From positions 2,543,501 through 2,607,500 of the forward strand of contig NC_019680.1 of assembly GCF_000316685.1 (NCBI RefSeq): a DNA stretch of 64,000 nt, in the 5' to 3' direction. The stretch is from Synechococcus sp. PCC 6312 (GTDB lineage: Bacteria > Cyanobacteriota > Cyanobacteriia > Thermosynechococcales > Thermosynechococcaceae). Position numbers and translations under genes: made by a program. Below the pieces are notes generated by a model. It made no database searches. It was given only the letters and a program-made list of their open reading frames with translations, and was not told the origin of the DNA. Shown here piece after piece: positions 11,984-61,334 of the stretch (position 1 is the first letter of the stretch; the number at the start of each line of letters is the position of its first letter).

Positions 11984-13981
11984 TTGACTTGGCGGTTGAA
12001 ATTGTCCCATGTTACTCAACGCCTTTCTCCGGCGGATTGGGGACAACTGCTGTCTGGTCTGGTGGTGCTACTGGCAACGGTGATTTCAACTGGATTGATC
12101 GTGGGAGTCCGGGGCCTGGGCGGTTTGGAGTCTTTGGAGTTGGCTGCCTATGACCGGCTGATGCAACTGCGCCCTGAGCCTGTGCCTGACCCTCGCATTC
12201 TTGTCGTTGGCATTACAGAAGCCGATATTCAAGCCCAAAAAACCTGGCCCTTACCGGATCAAGTTTATGCCGAGCTATTAGCGAAATTACTAGTTGCCCA
12301 ACCCCGAGCGATTGGCTTAGATATTTATCGAGATCTTCCCCTCCCCCCAGGCCACACTCAACTCAACCAAATTTTCCAAGACTCCGACCGAATTTTTGCC
12401 GTCACAAAAATTGGTGATGAAACCCATCCCACCATCAACGCCCCCAGCGGCCTATCCCCCCAACAAGTGGGCTTTAATGATGTGATTGTGGATGCAGGCG
12501 GCATTGTCCGGCGGAATATCTTGTTCTTGGGAGGTGAATCGGGAACTTTATTTTCCTTTTCACTCCGGTTAGCCTTGCGCTATCTCCAAGATGAACAAAT
12601 TCGCCCCCAGGCCAACCCCCGTAACTCCCAAGAAATGCAACTGGGGCAAACCATTTTTGTAGCACTCCAACCTAACTCCAGTGCCTATGTCCAGGCCGAT
12701 ACTCAGGGCTACCAAGTCATGCTCAACTATCGGGGGAATAATGCGGCGATCACTTGGGTCTCTCTGGGGGATGTCTTGGCAGGGCGGTTTGATCCCAGCT
12801 TGATCCGGAACCGCGTGGTTTTAATTGGGACATTGGCTGAGAGCGGGAAAGACTTTTTTTACACCCCCTTTAGTTCTGCCCTACAGGATGAGCAACGGAT
12901 GCCTGGGGTCGTGATTCATGCCCAAATGGTCAGTCAATTTCTCGATGCCGGAGCCGGAAAAAAAGCTACGTTTTGGTATTGGTCATGGCCGGTTGAGCTA
13001 GTCTGGATTGCTCTTTGGGCCGGTTTGGGGTCACTCCTGGCCTGGGGATTTCGACAACCGTGGTTGATTGGATTTGGGGCCGTCCTCAGTTTAGGGAGTT
13101 TGTTTGGGATTGCCTATGGGCTGTTTTTGCACTTGGGCTGGATTCCCCTTGTTCCCCCGGCCTTAGCTTTTATCATTTCTGGGGCCAGCGTGATTACCTA
13201 CACCGCCCAACAGGCCCAGCAACAACGGCAAATGGTGATGCGACTCTTGGGGCAAAGTACTTCTCCTGAAATTGCGGCAACGCTTTGGCAACGGCGAAAT
13301 GAACTCCTCCAAGATGGTCGCTTACCGGGGCAAAAACTGGTGGCCACCTTGCTATTTACAGATCTCAAAGGCTTTAGTACCATTTCCGAGACCATGGCCC
13401 CAGAAGACCTCTTACCTTGGCTGAATGACTATCTGGAAAAAGTTGCGGATATTGTCCAGGCCCATCAAGGGGTGATTAATAAATTTACCGGTGATGGAAT
13501 TATGGCTGTGTTTGGGGTCCCGATTCCCCGTACCACCGAGGCTGAGATTGCCCAGGATGCAAAAAACGCGGTGGATTGTGCCTTGGCTTTGGGGGAATCC
13601 TTAGGGGAATTAAACCAGGCCTGGAGCCGTCAAGGGCTACCCCAAGTGGGAATGCGGATCGGAATTTTTACTGGGCCCATTGTGGCGGGCAGTTTGGGGA
13701 GTAAAACCCGCTTGGAATATGGCGTAATTGGGGATAGTGTGAATACCGCCTCTCGTTTGGAAAGTGTGGATAAACATCGCCATCCTACCCCGTGTCGGAT
13801 TTTAATTGCGGCTGAAACCTTGGCCTATGTCCCGGATCGCTATCAAGTCGAGGCCTGGGGAGCATTGGAACTTAAAGGTAAGGAACATAAAATTCAGGTC
13901 TATCTGGTTCAAGGGCATCGCCACCCCCAATCCAGGCCTGGTTTAGTAAGCACCCCAAATGCGCAAGGACATATCAATTGA
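11984..13981 (+). CDS. CHASE2-domain adenylate/guanylate cyclase
   Basis: A 665-residue receptor-type class III cyclase. Residues ~20-40 are a first membrane helix; ~45-310 an extracytoplasmic CHASE2 sensor (AAYDRLMQLRPEP, RAIGLDIYRDLP, and later VVLIGTLAESGKDFFYTPFS); ~330-405 hold three hydrophobic helices; ~450-640 form the catalytic domain. That domain has intact metal aspartates (LLFTDLKGFSTISE and KFTGDGIMAVFG) and the transition-state region YGVIGDSVNTASRLES. It should therefore make cAMP or cGMP; the sequence does not settle which. The start is a TTG at 11984, chosen because it precedes the first membrane helix and no ATG is nearby. Confidence 0.92.
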   Translation: MTWRLKLSHVTQRLSPADWGQLLSGLVVLLATVISTGLIVGVRGLGGLESLELAAYDRLMQLRPEPVPDPRILVVGITEADIQAQKTWPLPDQVYAELLAKLLVAQPRAIGLDIYRDLPLPPGHTQLNQIFQDSDRIFAVTKIGDETHPTINAPSGLSPQQVGFNDVIVDAGGIVRRNILFLGGESGTLFSFSLRLALRYLQDEQIRPQANPRNSQEMQLGQTIFVALQPNSSAYVQADTQGYQVMLNYRGNNAAITWVSLGDVLAGRFDPSLIRNRVVLIGTLAESGKDFFYTPFSSALQDEQRMPGVVIHAQMVSQFLDAGAGKKATFWYWSWPVELVWIALWAGLGSLLAWGFRQPWLIGFGAVLSLGSLFGIAYGLFLHLGWIPLVPPALAFIISGASVITYTAQQAQQQRQMVMRLLGQSTSPEIAATLWQRRNELLQDGRLPGQKLVATLLFTDLKGFSTISETMAPEDLLPWLNDYLEKVADIVQAHQGVINKFTGDGIMAVFGVPIPRTTEAEIAQDAKNAVDCALALGESLGELNQAWSRQGLPQVGMRIGIFTGPIVAGSLGSKTRLEYGVIGDSVNTASRLESVDKHRHPTPCRILIAAETLAYVPDRYQVEAWGALELKGKEHKIQVYLVQGHRHPQSRPGLVSTPNAQGHIN

Positions 13982-58908: not shown

Positions 58909-59424
58909 TTACTTGAGAGTGGCGGCACCAAAGGTGGCATTAAATTTCCGACACCAAATTCCTACAGATTTATAGTTTGCCAAATTGATATTTTCGGGAA
59001 TAGTGTAGGTCTGAGTTCCATTAAATTTCTGCAGCGGCGCAACCACCACATAATCTCCAGCTTTGAGAGCATAGGCCGGAGGTTTGGTAGAACCAATGAC
59101 ATTGTTGGCCCGATGGAGGATAACAACCAAGTCTGGCCCCATAGAGAAGGTACTAAATCCTTGATCCAGTTGAATCAACCGTTTATTGCCCTCCTTAAGG
59201 ATTTTGACTCCGCCTTTAGTGGGATGTTCTCCTGAGACAAATGTGCCAGAACTAATCACTTTTGGTGACTGGGCAAGGAGTTGGGTTGGATGAGTCGGAG
59301 ATAAAAACTCAGGGCTGGCGAAACTGGCATGAATACCCCCCACGAGTCCCAGGCCCGCCGCAGCTAAACCGACCATTACAGCGCGAACCGAAGACTTGAA
59401 TCCTGTTGCAGGCTGAATTCTCAT
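58909..59424 (-). CDS. Secreted DM13-domain protein
   Basis: 171 residues. Signal peptide 1-37 (SVRAVMVGLAAAGLGLVGGI, cleavage after SFA). DM13 domain ~55-165: SGTFVSGEHPTKGGVKILKE, FSTFSMGPDLVVILHRANNV, YVVVAPLQKFNGTQTYTIPE, YKSVGIWCRKFNATFGAATL. DM13 is a small electron-transfer or adhesion-like domain; a conserved Cys in VGIWCRKF is present. Function is unproven. Start ATG at 59422-59424; alone on the strand. Confidence 0.88.
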   Translation of the reverse strand: MRIQPATGFKSSVRAVMVGLAAAGLGLVGGIHASFASPEFLSPTHPTQLLAQSPKVISSGTFVSGEHPTKGGVKILKEGNKRLIQLDQGFSTFSMGPDLVVILHRANNVIGSTKPPAYALKAGDYVVVAPLQKFNGTQTYTIPENINLANYKSVGIWCRKFNATFGAATLK

Positions 59425-59610: not shown

Positions 59611-60609
59611 TTATTTTTTAAATCGGTTCATGAATGCCGTCACCCGTTGTCCCAAAGATAGGCCTGGTGCTGTGGCCTGGGAAACTATTGAATTTACGAA
59701 GGGAGGTTCTCCGGTAATGGCAGTAATTTCCACCAGGGTTAAATCTCCTCCGGTTCTCGCCAGGCGGCCCGTGCGTTGAGTCGTCACAGCATCTTTGACT
59801 TGCTGATGGGCATCTCCAGACACCAGCAGGCTTGTCCCAGCGTTTTTATTCGCAGCTTCAATCAAGGTGGCGACATTGACGGCTTCCCCAAAAGGGCTGA
59901 CAAATTCTGGACGGGTTGGATCCACAGGGACTAGAACTACGGGGCCAAAATGGACACCGATCGTAAGTTGCAAGGGTTGGTAGGACAGGGTATGGAGAAA
60001 ATGGTTTAGTTCACCCATCGCCGTTTGCATTTCTAAAGCTGCCCAAATGGCCTGGCGAGCCGAATCCTCATTTTCCTCCACACCAAAGGTAGCAATTGCC
60101 CGATTCCCCAAAAAGTTGTTGAGTGTACCCCCAAACTTGCTAACGACCTGATGGAGGCGATTAAAATAGCGGCTAATGACATAAACGACATCAAAGGGAA
60201 AATTGACCTCATCAAACTCCGCCTCACCCCGAATTCCAGCCACCAGGAGAGCCACATTTTTCTTTGCGCCAGTCCCCTGATGGGCTAATTGCTGATCCAC
60301 CAGGCCAATGTCATCTCGATCTAACACCATACGGCGAATTTCTACCTTGCCTTGGGAGACTTTGGTTTGGCAGGCCAGGCGAATATGAAAGGGAAAATCC
60401 AGCTTTTTGGCTAAGGCTAGTTCAGGCCCCGAAGGCAGCGTGCAATGCTCAATCCCATCTAAGACCATGATGCGACAGGTCGAGCAATTGGCATGGCCAC
60501 CACAGACATGGGTATGGTCAATATTGGCTCGCAACAGGGCATCCAGCACCGTCTCATTGGGGTTAATCGGCACTGTTTCGCCATCGGGACGGCAATAAAT
60601 TTCTGGCAT
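59611..60609 (-). CDS. 2Fe-2S ferredoxin fused to a degenerate class III cyclase domain
   Basis: 332 residues. Residues ~1-95 are a plant-type ferredoxin with Cys pattern HVCGGHANCSTCRI and later RLACQTK, four Cys able to bind 2Fe-2S. Residues ~120-310 follow the class III cyclase fold (FNRLHQVVSKFGGTLNNFLG, LTIGVHFGPVVLVP, FGEAVNVATLIEAANK). Both metal-binding Asp are lost: the FxDIxGFT site reads VAGIRGEAEF, and the GDG site reads GNRAIATFG. It is therefore probably not an active cyclase, or uses another chemistry; a redox-sensing regulator is likely. Start ATG at 60607-60609. Divergent from a peroxiredoxin-like gene. Confidence 0.9.
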   Translation of the reverse strand: MPEIYCRPDGETVPINPNETVLDALLRANIDHTHVCGGHANCSTCRIMVLDGIEHCTLPSGPELALAKKLDFPFHIRLACQTKVSQGKVEIRRMVLDRDDIGLVDQQLAHQGTGAKKNVALLVAGIRGEAEFDEVNFPFDVVYVISRYFNRLHQVVSKFGGTLNNFLGNRAIATFGVEENEDSARQAIWAALEMQTAMGELNHFLHTLSYQPLQLTIGVHFGPVVLVPVDPTRPEFVSPFGEAVNVATLIEAANKNAGTSLLVSGDAHQQVKDAVTTQRTGRLARTGGDLTLVEITAITGEPPFVNSIVSQATAPGLSLGQRVTAFMNRFKK

Positions 60610-60743
60610 AAAATTACTCCTTGGTCACTCTTCCAACGGTAACATTGCCAAAAAGATTTGCACCCACATGACGCTACTAGGCTGTGCTGACCATTGCCAG
60701 GTCTGGAGAGAGTATTGATCCCGATCTCAGGGTAAACTACTTA

Positions 60744-61334
60744 ATGAACGCGTGGTTGGGGTCACTGGTGAACGTGCAGCTACCCTTTTTTAGTTCCAAT
60801 AACTTTACAGGCCTGGTCAATGACCGCTTCTGGCAGAACTTTTTCCCCGTGCCAGCAACTAATCGCCTTGTCCTTGGGGGCCTGGTTCCCGATTTTGAAT
60901 TGCCCGTTGTCCAGCAGGGAGACCGAATTCGTTTAGCGAGTCTCTGGGTTGAGAAGCCTGTAGTGATTGCCTTTACCCGCATTTTCACCCAACATCAATA
61001 CTGCCCCTTTTGTTTGCCTCACATTAAAGACCTGAATCAACAATATGAGGCGTTCCAGGCCAAGGGAGCCGAGCTTTTACTCGTTACCAGTACCGACATT
61101 GGCCAAAGTCAAATGGTGGTCACAGACCTTCAACTCAAAATGCCCCTCCTCAGCGACCCGGAGTGCAAAACCTTCAAAAAATATCAAACTGGCCAGGCCC
61201 TCGGCGCACCCCTACCCGCCCAGTTCATCATCACCACCGCCGGACGACTTCACTACAAGCACCTATTTTCTTTTTTTGATCACAATTCAAGCGCCTCCCA
61301 ATTGCTGGCAGAACTCGATCAACTGCCTGTCTAA
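60744..61334 (+). CDS. Peroxiredoxin-like (AhpC/TSA) protein with CPFC motif
   Basis: About 196 residues of the redoxin family. Thioredoxin-fold segments: LGGLVPDFELPVVQQGDRIR, VVIAFTRIFTQHQYCPFCLP with a CxxC pair at the active site, GAELLLVTSTDIGQSQMVV, MPLLSDPECKTFKKYQ and LPAQFIITTAGRLHYKH. A CPFC pair is more like a disulfide reductase or the cyanobacterial peroxiredoxin-like group than a 1-Cys Prx. The ATG at 60744 is preferred; an in-frame GTG at 60684 would extend it by 20 residues. It shares a divergent promoter region with the ferredoxin-cyclase gene. Confidence 0.82.
   Translation: MNAWLGSLVNVQLPFFSSNNFTGLVNDRFWQNFFPVPATNRLVLGGLVPDFELPVVQQGDRIRLASLWVEKPVVIAFTRIFTQHQYCPFCLPHIKDLNQQYEAFQAKGAELLLVTSTDIGQSQMVVTDLQLKMPLLSDPECKTFKKYQTGQALGAPLPAQFIITTAGRLHYKHLFSFFDHNSSASQLLAELDQLPV

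Follow-up and report, generated by a model that had tools for sequence, protein, structure and literature searches.

A conserved clade of cyanobacterial ferredoxin-linked cyclase domains that lack both metal-binding aspartates

Introduction

CyaC of Sinorhizobium meliloti is a redox-regulated cyclase in which a ferredoxin domain is followed by a cyclase domain (PMC10463352; PMC4821796), and a cluster of ferredoxin-bearing cyclases has already been described (PMC4821796). CyaC and the related class IIIb cyclases of alpha- and betaproteobacteria, such as Q132R4 of R. palustris, consist of a diheme-b anchor with six transmembrane segments, a ferredoxin and a catalytic domain. Two active cyclases of cyanobacteria, the Synechocystis guanylyl cyclase Cya2 (2w01) and the Spirulina adenylyl cyclase CyaC (1wc1), have both metal-binding aspartates, and their solved parts contain no ferredoxin. 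In mammals, the C2 half of adenylyl cyclase is a class III domain that lacks the metal-binding aspartates and is kept by selection.

Here we analyse a gene in a 64,000-nucleotide stretch of the Synechococcus sp. PCC 6312 genome (hereafter, the window) that encodes a ferredoxin domain joined to a class III cyclase domain. The nearest characterised relative of its product is S. meliloti CyaC; in proteins of the CyaC type, as in this one, a class III domain comes after a ferredoxin of adrenodoxin type, and the homology extends through both domains, with approximately 32% identity over 261 residues. Unlike CyaC, the window protein has no six-transmembrane heme anchor, as its ferredoxin match begins at residue 8 with nothing before it, and both metal-binding aspartates, which are kept by all eight outgroup proteins described below, are gone. 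The ferredoxin–cyclase architecture is already known; what is new, as judged from a search confined to open-licence papers in which we found no description of it, is a conserved, apparently non-catalytic branch of this family.

Gene, domains and metal-binding positions

The coordinates of the gene and its features are given in Table 1. The spacing between the AAGGAG sequence and the ATG of this reading frame is normal. Both the Fer2 and the Guanylate_cyc matches of the protein exceed the curated Pfam cut-offs, the latter covering residues 116–272 with 47 bits against a cut-off of 21.9 (PF00211, 3e-12).

Table 1 Features of the ferredoxin–pseudocyclase locus and related genes
Feature	Position	Strand	Basis
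Ferredoxin–pseudocyclase gene, 332 aa	59611..60609	-	ORF, Pfam Fer2 and Guanylate_cyc, 55 homologues
Ribosome-binding sequence AAGGAG, upstream of ATG	60617..60622	-	Sequence 5' of ATG
2Fe-2S ferredoxin domain, residues 8-84, adrenodoxin/ISC-type Cys spacing	60358..60588	-	Pfam PF00111, 1e-12
Class III cyclase-fold domain, residues 111-303, presumed non-catalytic	59701..60279	-	Pfam PF00211, 3e-12; model pLDDT 90.4
First metal-Asp position, Gly125 (codon GGA)	60235..60237	-	Alignment to 2w01
Second metal-Asp position, Asn169 (codon AAT)	60103..60105	-	Alignment to 2w01
C-terminal amphipathic basic helix (predicted), residues 319-331, after low-confidence linker	59617..59655	-	DSSP on model
Divergent AhpC/TSA-family thiol-redox protein with CPFC	60684..61334	+	Pfam PF00578, 4.5e-21
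Class III cyclases, candidate heterodimer partners	G000:C1:2556843 and G000:C1:842113

The ferredoxin cysteines are arranged as C36-x5-C42-x2-C45-x34-C80, a C-x5-C-x2-C pattern with a distal cysteine that we take to be of the adrenodoxin/ISC type, as distinct from the plant-type spacing seen in photosynthetic ferredoxin. The nearest NCBIfam model for this domain is ISC ferredoxin, with a score below its cut-off. An earlier note on this DNA, made from the letters of the window, had remarked that the four cysteines are kept, and the remark extends well beyond the window: Cys36, Cys42, Cys45 and Cys80 occur without exception in the 55 cyanobacterial homologues and in all eight outgroup proteins. 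A fifth cysteine of the ferredoxin domain, Cys56, is present in 55 of 55 cyanobacterial proteins and in only two of the eight outgroup proteins.

The same note had read the metal-binding aspartates as replaced by glycine and asparagine, and this was borne out at Gly125 and Asn169 by the alignment to 2w01 and by the codons; the SDLRG and GDG motifs of Cya2 correspond to AGIRG and GNR in the window protein. Of the two transition-state residues, Asn245 is kept and Arg249 is replaced by leucine.

To see how widespread this loss is among relatives, we searched 390 genomes of the same class and obtained 54 full-length relatives in 52 genomes, to which a 55th record was added from another collection (locus L021, whose protein is identical to that of L059). 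In the alignment of these 55 cyanobacterial homologues, 25 have both aspartates and the other 30 lack both, with no protein that has a single one; the eight outgroup proteins have both. Where the aspartates are absent, the first is replaced by Thr, Ser, Gly, Arg, Ala, Lys or Asn, and the second mostly by Val, Leu, Asn or Phe. The PF00211 model matches 18 of the 21 members of this aspartate-free group that we tested. Its 30 proteins span eight families and 15 genera, as coded in the genome set.

The aspartate-free form occurs in 29 of the 390 genomes, the intact form in 25 and both forms in two (G202 and G319). We considered whether the two forms exclude each other, but co-occurrence in two genomes is about what chance would give and carries no signal. 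The distribution of the gene or its intact relative is patchy: one or the other is carried by 2 of the 29 genomes of the family to which the window belongs and by 16 of the 38 genomes of the family of G051. A search of phages gave no match to the ferredoxin–pseudocyclase.

The 25 intact cyanobacterial ferredoxin–cyclases (for example, L075), the nearest relatives with both aspartates, share with the window protein their length, domains, five conserved cysteines and kind of C-terminal helix. They differ in having both aspartates together with Phe129, Gly170, Asn245 and Arg249 in 25 of 25 proteins, and in not having the Asp133, Phe137 and Tyr210 of the aspartate-free form. Their own substrate is uncertain, as position 165, at which adenylyl cyclases usually carry an adenine-selecting lysine, is Asn, Val or Ile and never Lys (0 of 25).

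Origin of the loss

In the unrooted tree, a single branch separates all aspartate-free proteins from the intact ones (support 100/98). We rooted the tree with eight proteobacterial and Bacteroidota ferredoxin–cyclases from plasmids of Rhizobiaceae, Tistrella, Cupriavidus and Hymenobacter, all of which have both aspartates. In the rooted tree, the aspartate-free proteins group as a single clade (100/100) that lies within the intact ones, with the intact protein L072 as its nearest sister (99/89), and the intact cyanobacterial forms are a paraphyletic set from which this clade split off once. Because the clade is nested among intact proteins, its ancestor would have had both aspartates, and the tree is most simply read as a single loss of both in a common ancestor, inherited across eight families.

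L110, from plasmid pRsp8C3c of Rhizobium etli 8C-3, has a 465-residue frame in which the ferredoxin and the intact cyclase domain are followed by a C-terminal Rieske-like CxH...CxxH pattern, an apparent ferredoxin–cyclase–Rieske fusion.

Selection on the aspartate-free domain

The existence of intact homologues raised the question, foreseen in the earlier note, of whether the window copy is merely decaying. In close pairs of aspartate-free proteins, the cyclase-domain dN/dS is about 0.04–0.19, compared with 0.04–0.11 in intact pairs, and the members have full-length frames with no internal stops. Purifying selection acts on the aspartate-free cyclase domain. The clade also has invariants of its own, Pro73, Asp133, Phe137 and Tyr210, each present in 30 of 30 members and variable or different in the intact relatives; Pro73 lies a few residues ahead of the fourth cluster cysteine, and the other three are in the cyclase domain. 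Given the low dN/dS, the intact frames, these invariants and survival in eight families, the aspartate-free form is a retained pseudo-cyclase and not a product of decay. Cys6, outside this set, is found in 27 of 30 members of the clade and in 0 of 25 intact proteins.

Other positions have moved in the opposite direction. The intact form is uniform at Phe129, Thr130, Gly170, Asn245 and Arg249, all of which vary in the aspartate-free clade; there, position 169 is mostly hydrophobic with Arg or Lys at 170, Arg249 is present in 20 of 30 members, and about one member in three lacks Asn245 and a similar share lacks Arg249. The extra divergence of the clade is confined to one domain: the median identity of the cyclase domain is 38% in the aspartate-free clade versus 63% in the intact form, whereas that of the ferredoxin domain is 59% versus 60%. 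Clade-specific invariants, a relaxed nucleotide site and greater divergence of the cyclase domain only make up the pattern expected, at the level of sequence, of a domain whose job has changed.

Two further explanations bear on these results. A cyclase domain that is a decaying relic, with only the ferredoxin (or nothing) of importance, would fit its faster divergence in this clade and the patchy distribution in the window's own family, but it is at odds with the low dN/dS, the absence of stops, the full-length frames, the new invariants and the survival in eight families; we regard it as highly improbable and already largely refuted. That the protein is still an active cyclase with other metal ligands seems barely credible to us. 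Asp133, invariant in the clade and eight residues past the lost first aspartate, is a conceivable substitute, but both aspartates have gone together with Phe129, Gly170 and often Arg249, and around position 169 the clade has gained no further invariant acidic residue.

Predicted fold and C-terminal tail

A structural model built from 48 aligned relatives has a mean pLDDT of 90.4 and a pTM of 0.83. Residues 111–303 of the model superimpose on Cya2 (2w01_D) with a Z score of 25.6 and an r.m.s.d. of 2.0 Å over 189 residues, and comparison with catalytic cyclases in general gives Z scores of 21–26 (24.3 for Spirulina CyaC, 1wc1). The aspartate-free domain is thus predicted to fold like Cya2, Spirulina CyaC and other active cyclases, and the view that it keeps the landmarks of the fold, already put forward from the sequence, agrees with both this model and the Pfam match.

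Past residue 300, the model consists of a low-confidence linker and then a short helix. A basic amphipathic C-terminal stretch is present in nearly all members, aspartate-free and intact alike. In the tails of L045–L097, a basic amphipathic or aromatic-rich helix follows a flexible linker in both forms. The helix is a possible peripheral-membrane or docking element and could stand in for the anchor that holds proteobacterial CyaC in the membrane. When the tails were compared with shuffled tails, support was uneven (individual p values between 0.00 and 1.00), and we put forward a membrane role only as a suggestion.

Proposed function

That the loss of both aspartates has been kept by selection suggests a redox switch that works through binding partners and not through cAMP. 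We put the chances at about even that we are dealing with a conserved pseudo-cyclase that responds to redox state and works through a bound partner instead of synthesizing a messenger, a reading that is in part inferred. In this mechanism, the adrenodoxin-type domain would carry a [2Fe-2S] cluster, as its invariant ligands indicate. The cyclase domain, with both aspartates absent from its sequence, would presumably make neither cAMP nor cGMP by the known two-metal mechanism, and its fold would have been retained as a platform for dimerization and partner binding. Reduction or oxidation of the cluster may then rearrange the domain dimer, as the quinone-driven redox change does in active CyaC, and the output would probably be an altered interaction with a protein partner in place of a second messenger. 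Redox control of the window protein is suggested by its intact ferredoxin and by analogy with its redox-regulated relative CyaC.

We also offer, tentatively, a more complete version: a [2Fe-2S] ferredoxin that steers a cyclase-fold pseudoenzyme, which regulates its partner by binding, possibly at a membrane by way of the C-terminal helix, so that a redox-regulated cyclase ancestor would have given rise to a messenger-free output. Pseudo-enzymes that are kept by selection point to regulation through binding. As one family contains intact sisters, the sensor domain and a loss that happened once, the change from cyclase to redox switch could be followed by comparing sisters. If correct, the proposal would add a ferredoxin-based regulator to cyanobacteria, in which electron flow is the central physiological signal.

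The earlier note had envisaged a redox-controlled, non-catalytic module that binds nucleotides or proteins. The non-catalytic part is well founded, given the conserved loss of the aspartates in a single clade, the purifying selection and the four invariant cysteines. Of the two kinds of binding, protein binding fits better, because the residues of the nucleotide site, namely the Phe and Thr of the phosphate loop, Gly170 and the Asn/Arg pair, are variable. Nevertheless, some lineages of the clade may keep a nucleotide-related role, as 11 of 30 members still have the trio Thr238, Asn245 and Arg249. A metal-free nucleotide sensor, whose pocket binds ATP, GTP, cAMP or another nucleotide without turnover, would be consistent with the retained fold and with Thr or Ser at position 238 in 22 of 30 members. 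Variation in the residues that hold the phosphates and ribose, together with the often bulky hydrophobic residue at 169 followed by Arg or Lys, makes such a sensor distinctly unlikely in our judgement.

Gene neighbourhood

The divergent neighbour with a CPFC motif had been taken to strengthen a redox link. The gene is real (Table 1), but gene order does not support the link: at related loci, an AhpC/TSA neighbour was found in only 1 of 54, as a distant 30% stretch near L061. Since the association is not conserved, this neighbour lends little support to a redox function. More generally, gene order around the ferredoxin–pseudocyclase gene is not conserved between genera, and no gene is a constant adjacent partner, which counts against the proposed partner-binding role. 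The downstream gene on the same strand in the window, approximately 190 bases away (58909–59424, − strand), encodes a DM13-domain protein (PF10517, 'electron transfer DM13'); its position relative to the ferredoxin–pseudocyclase gene is not conserved.

In Pseudanabaena (L053:2644-13167; L049–L059), the gene lies within a compact same-strand run in the order SDR, GMC oxidoreductase, glyoxalase-like protein, 276-residue protein with no Pfam match, ferredoxin–pseudocyclase, GMC oxidoreductase, 117-residue protein and glycosidase-like protein, with the second GMC flavin oxidoreductase gene starting 34 bp downstream of the ferredoxin–pseudocyclase gene. This run raises the possibility that the protein is an electron carrier with a scaffold, in which the ferredoxin donates electrons to an oxidoreductase or accepts them from it, and the dead cyclase domain serves solely for docking or dimerization, without signalling. 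The two GMC oxidoreductases, the SDR and the glyoxalase-like protein of the run are in keeping with such a carrier, as is the conservation of the ferredoxin domain, which equals or exceeds that of the cyclase domain. However, the window genome and several other genomes with the ferredoxin–pseudocyclase lack the GMC and 276-residue genes, which elsewhere occur as a pair without the ferredoxin–pseudocyclase gene; sustained selection on the cyclase domain and its new invariants would also be left unexplained by a pure carrier. We therefore think this explanation unlikely. The Pseudanabaena GMC oxidoreductase operon was rejected as a general partner because its genes are absent from the window genome.

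Other class III cyclases in the same genomes

Pseudo-heterodimeric cyclases are established in animals, and the aspartate-free protein could likewise be a C2-like half that pairs with an intact class III cyclase, contributes the opposite half-site without metals and tunes its partner by redox state. Candidate partners exist: at least one intact class III cyclase is encoded in each of the seven carrier genomes read for one (G000, G002, G032, G042, G062, G090 and G111), and in the window genome the class III cyclase domains number three, of which the two besides the pseudo-cyclase keep both aspartates in sequence (Table 1). The 11 of 30 members with Thr238, Asn245 and Arg249 would also suit this arrangement. 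The mammalian C2 half, however, still supplies its partner with substrate and transition-state residues, and any C2-like donor would have to provide the Asn and Arg of the transition state; the leucine at position 249 of the window protein, and the variable Asn/Arg pair of the clade, weaken this explanation. Furthermore, the aspartate-free form and an intact ferredoxin–cyclase occur together in only two genomes. On balance, a heterodimeric role, which with the electron carrier is one of the two main rivals, seems improbable to us, and the redox-responsive pseudo-cyclase that binds a protein partner is the reading that we prefer.

The window itself holds a second class III cyclase domain (13343–13912, + strand) within a 667-residue frame that keeps both metal-binding aspartates, and the N-terminal part of this protein resembles, by its sequence, an extracellular sensor with membrane helices.
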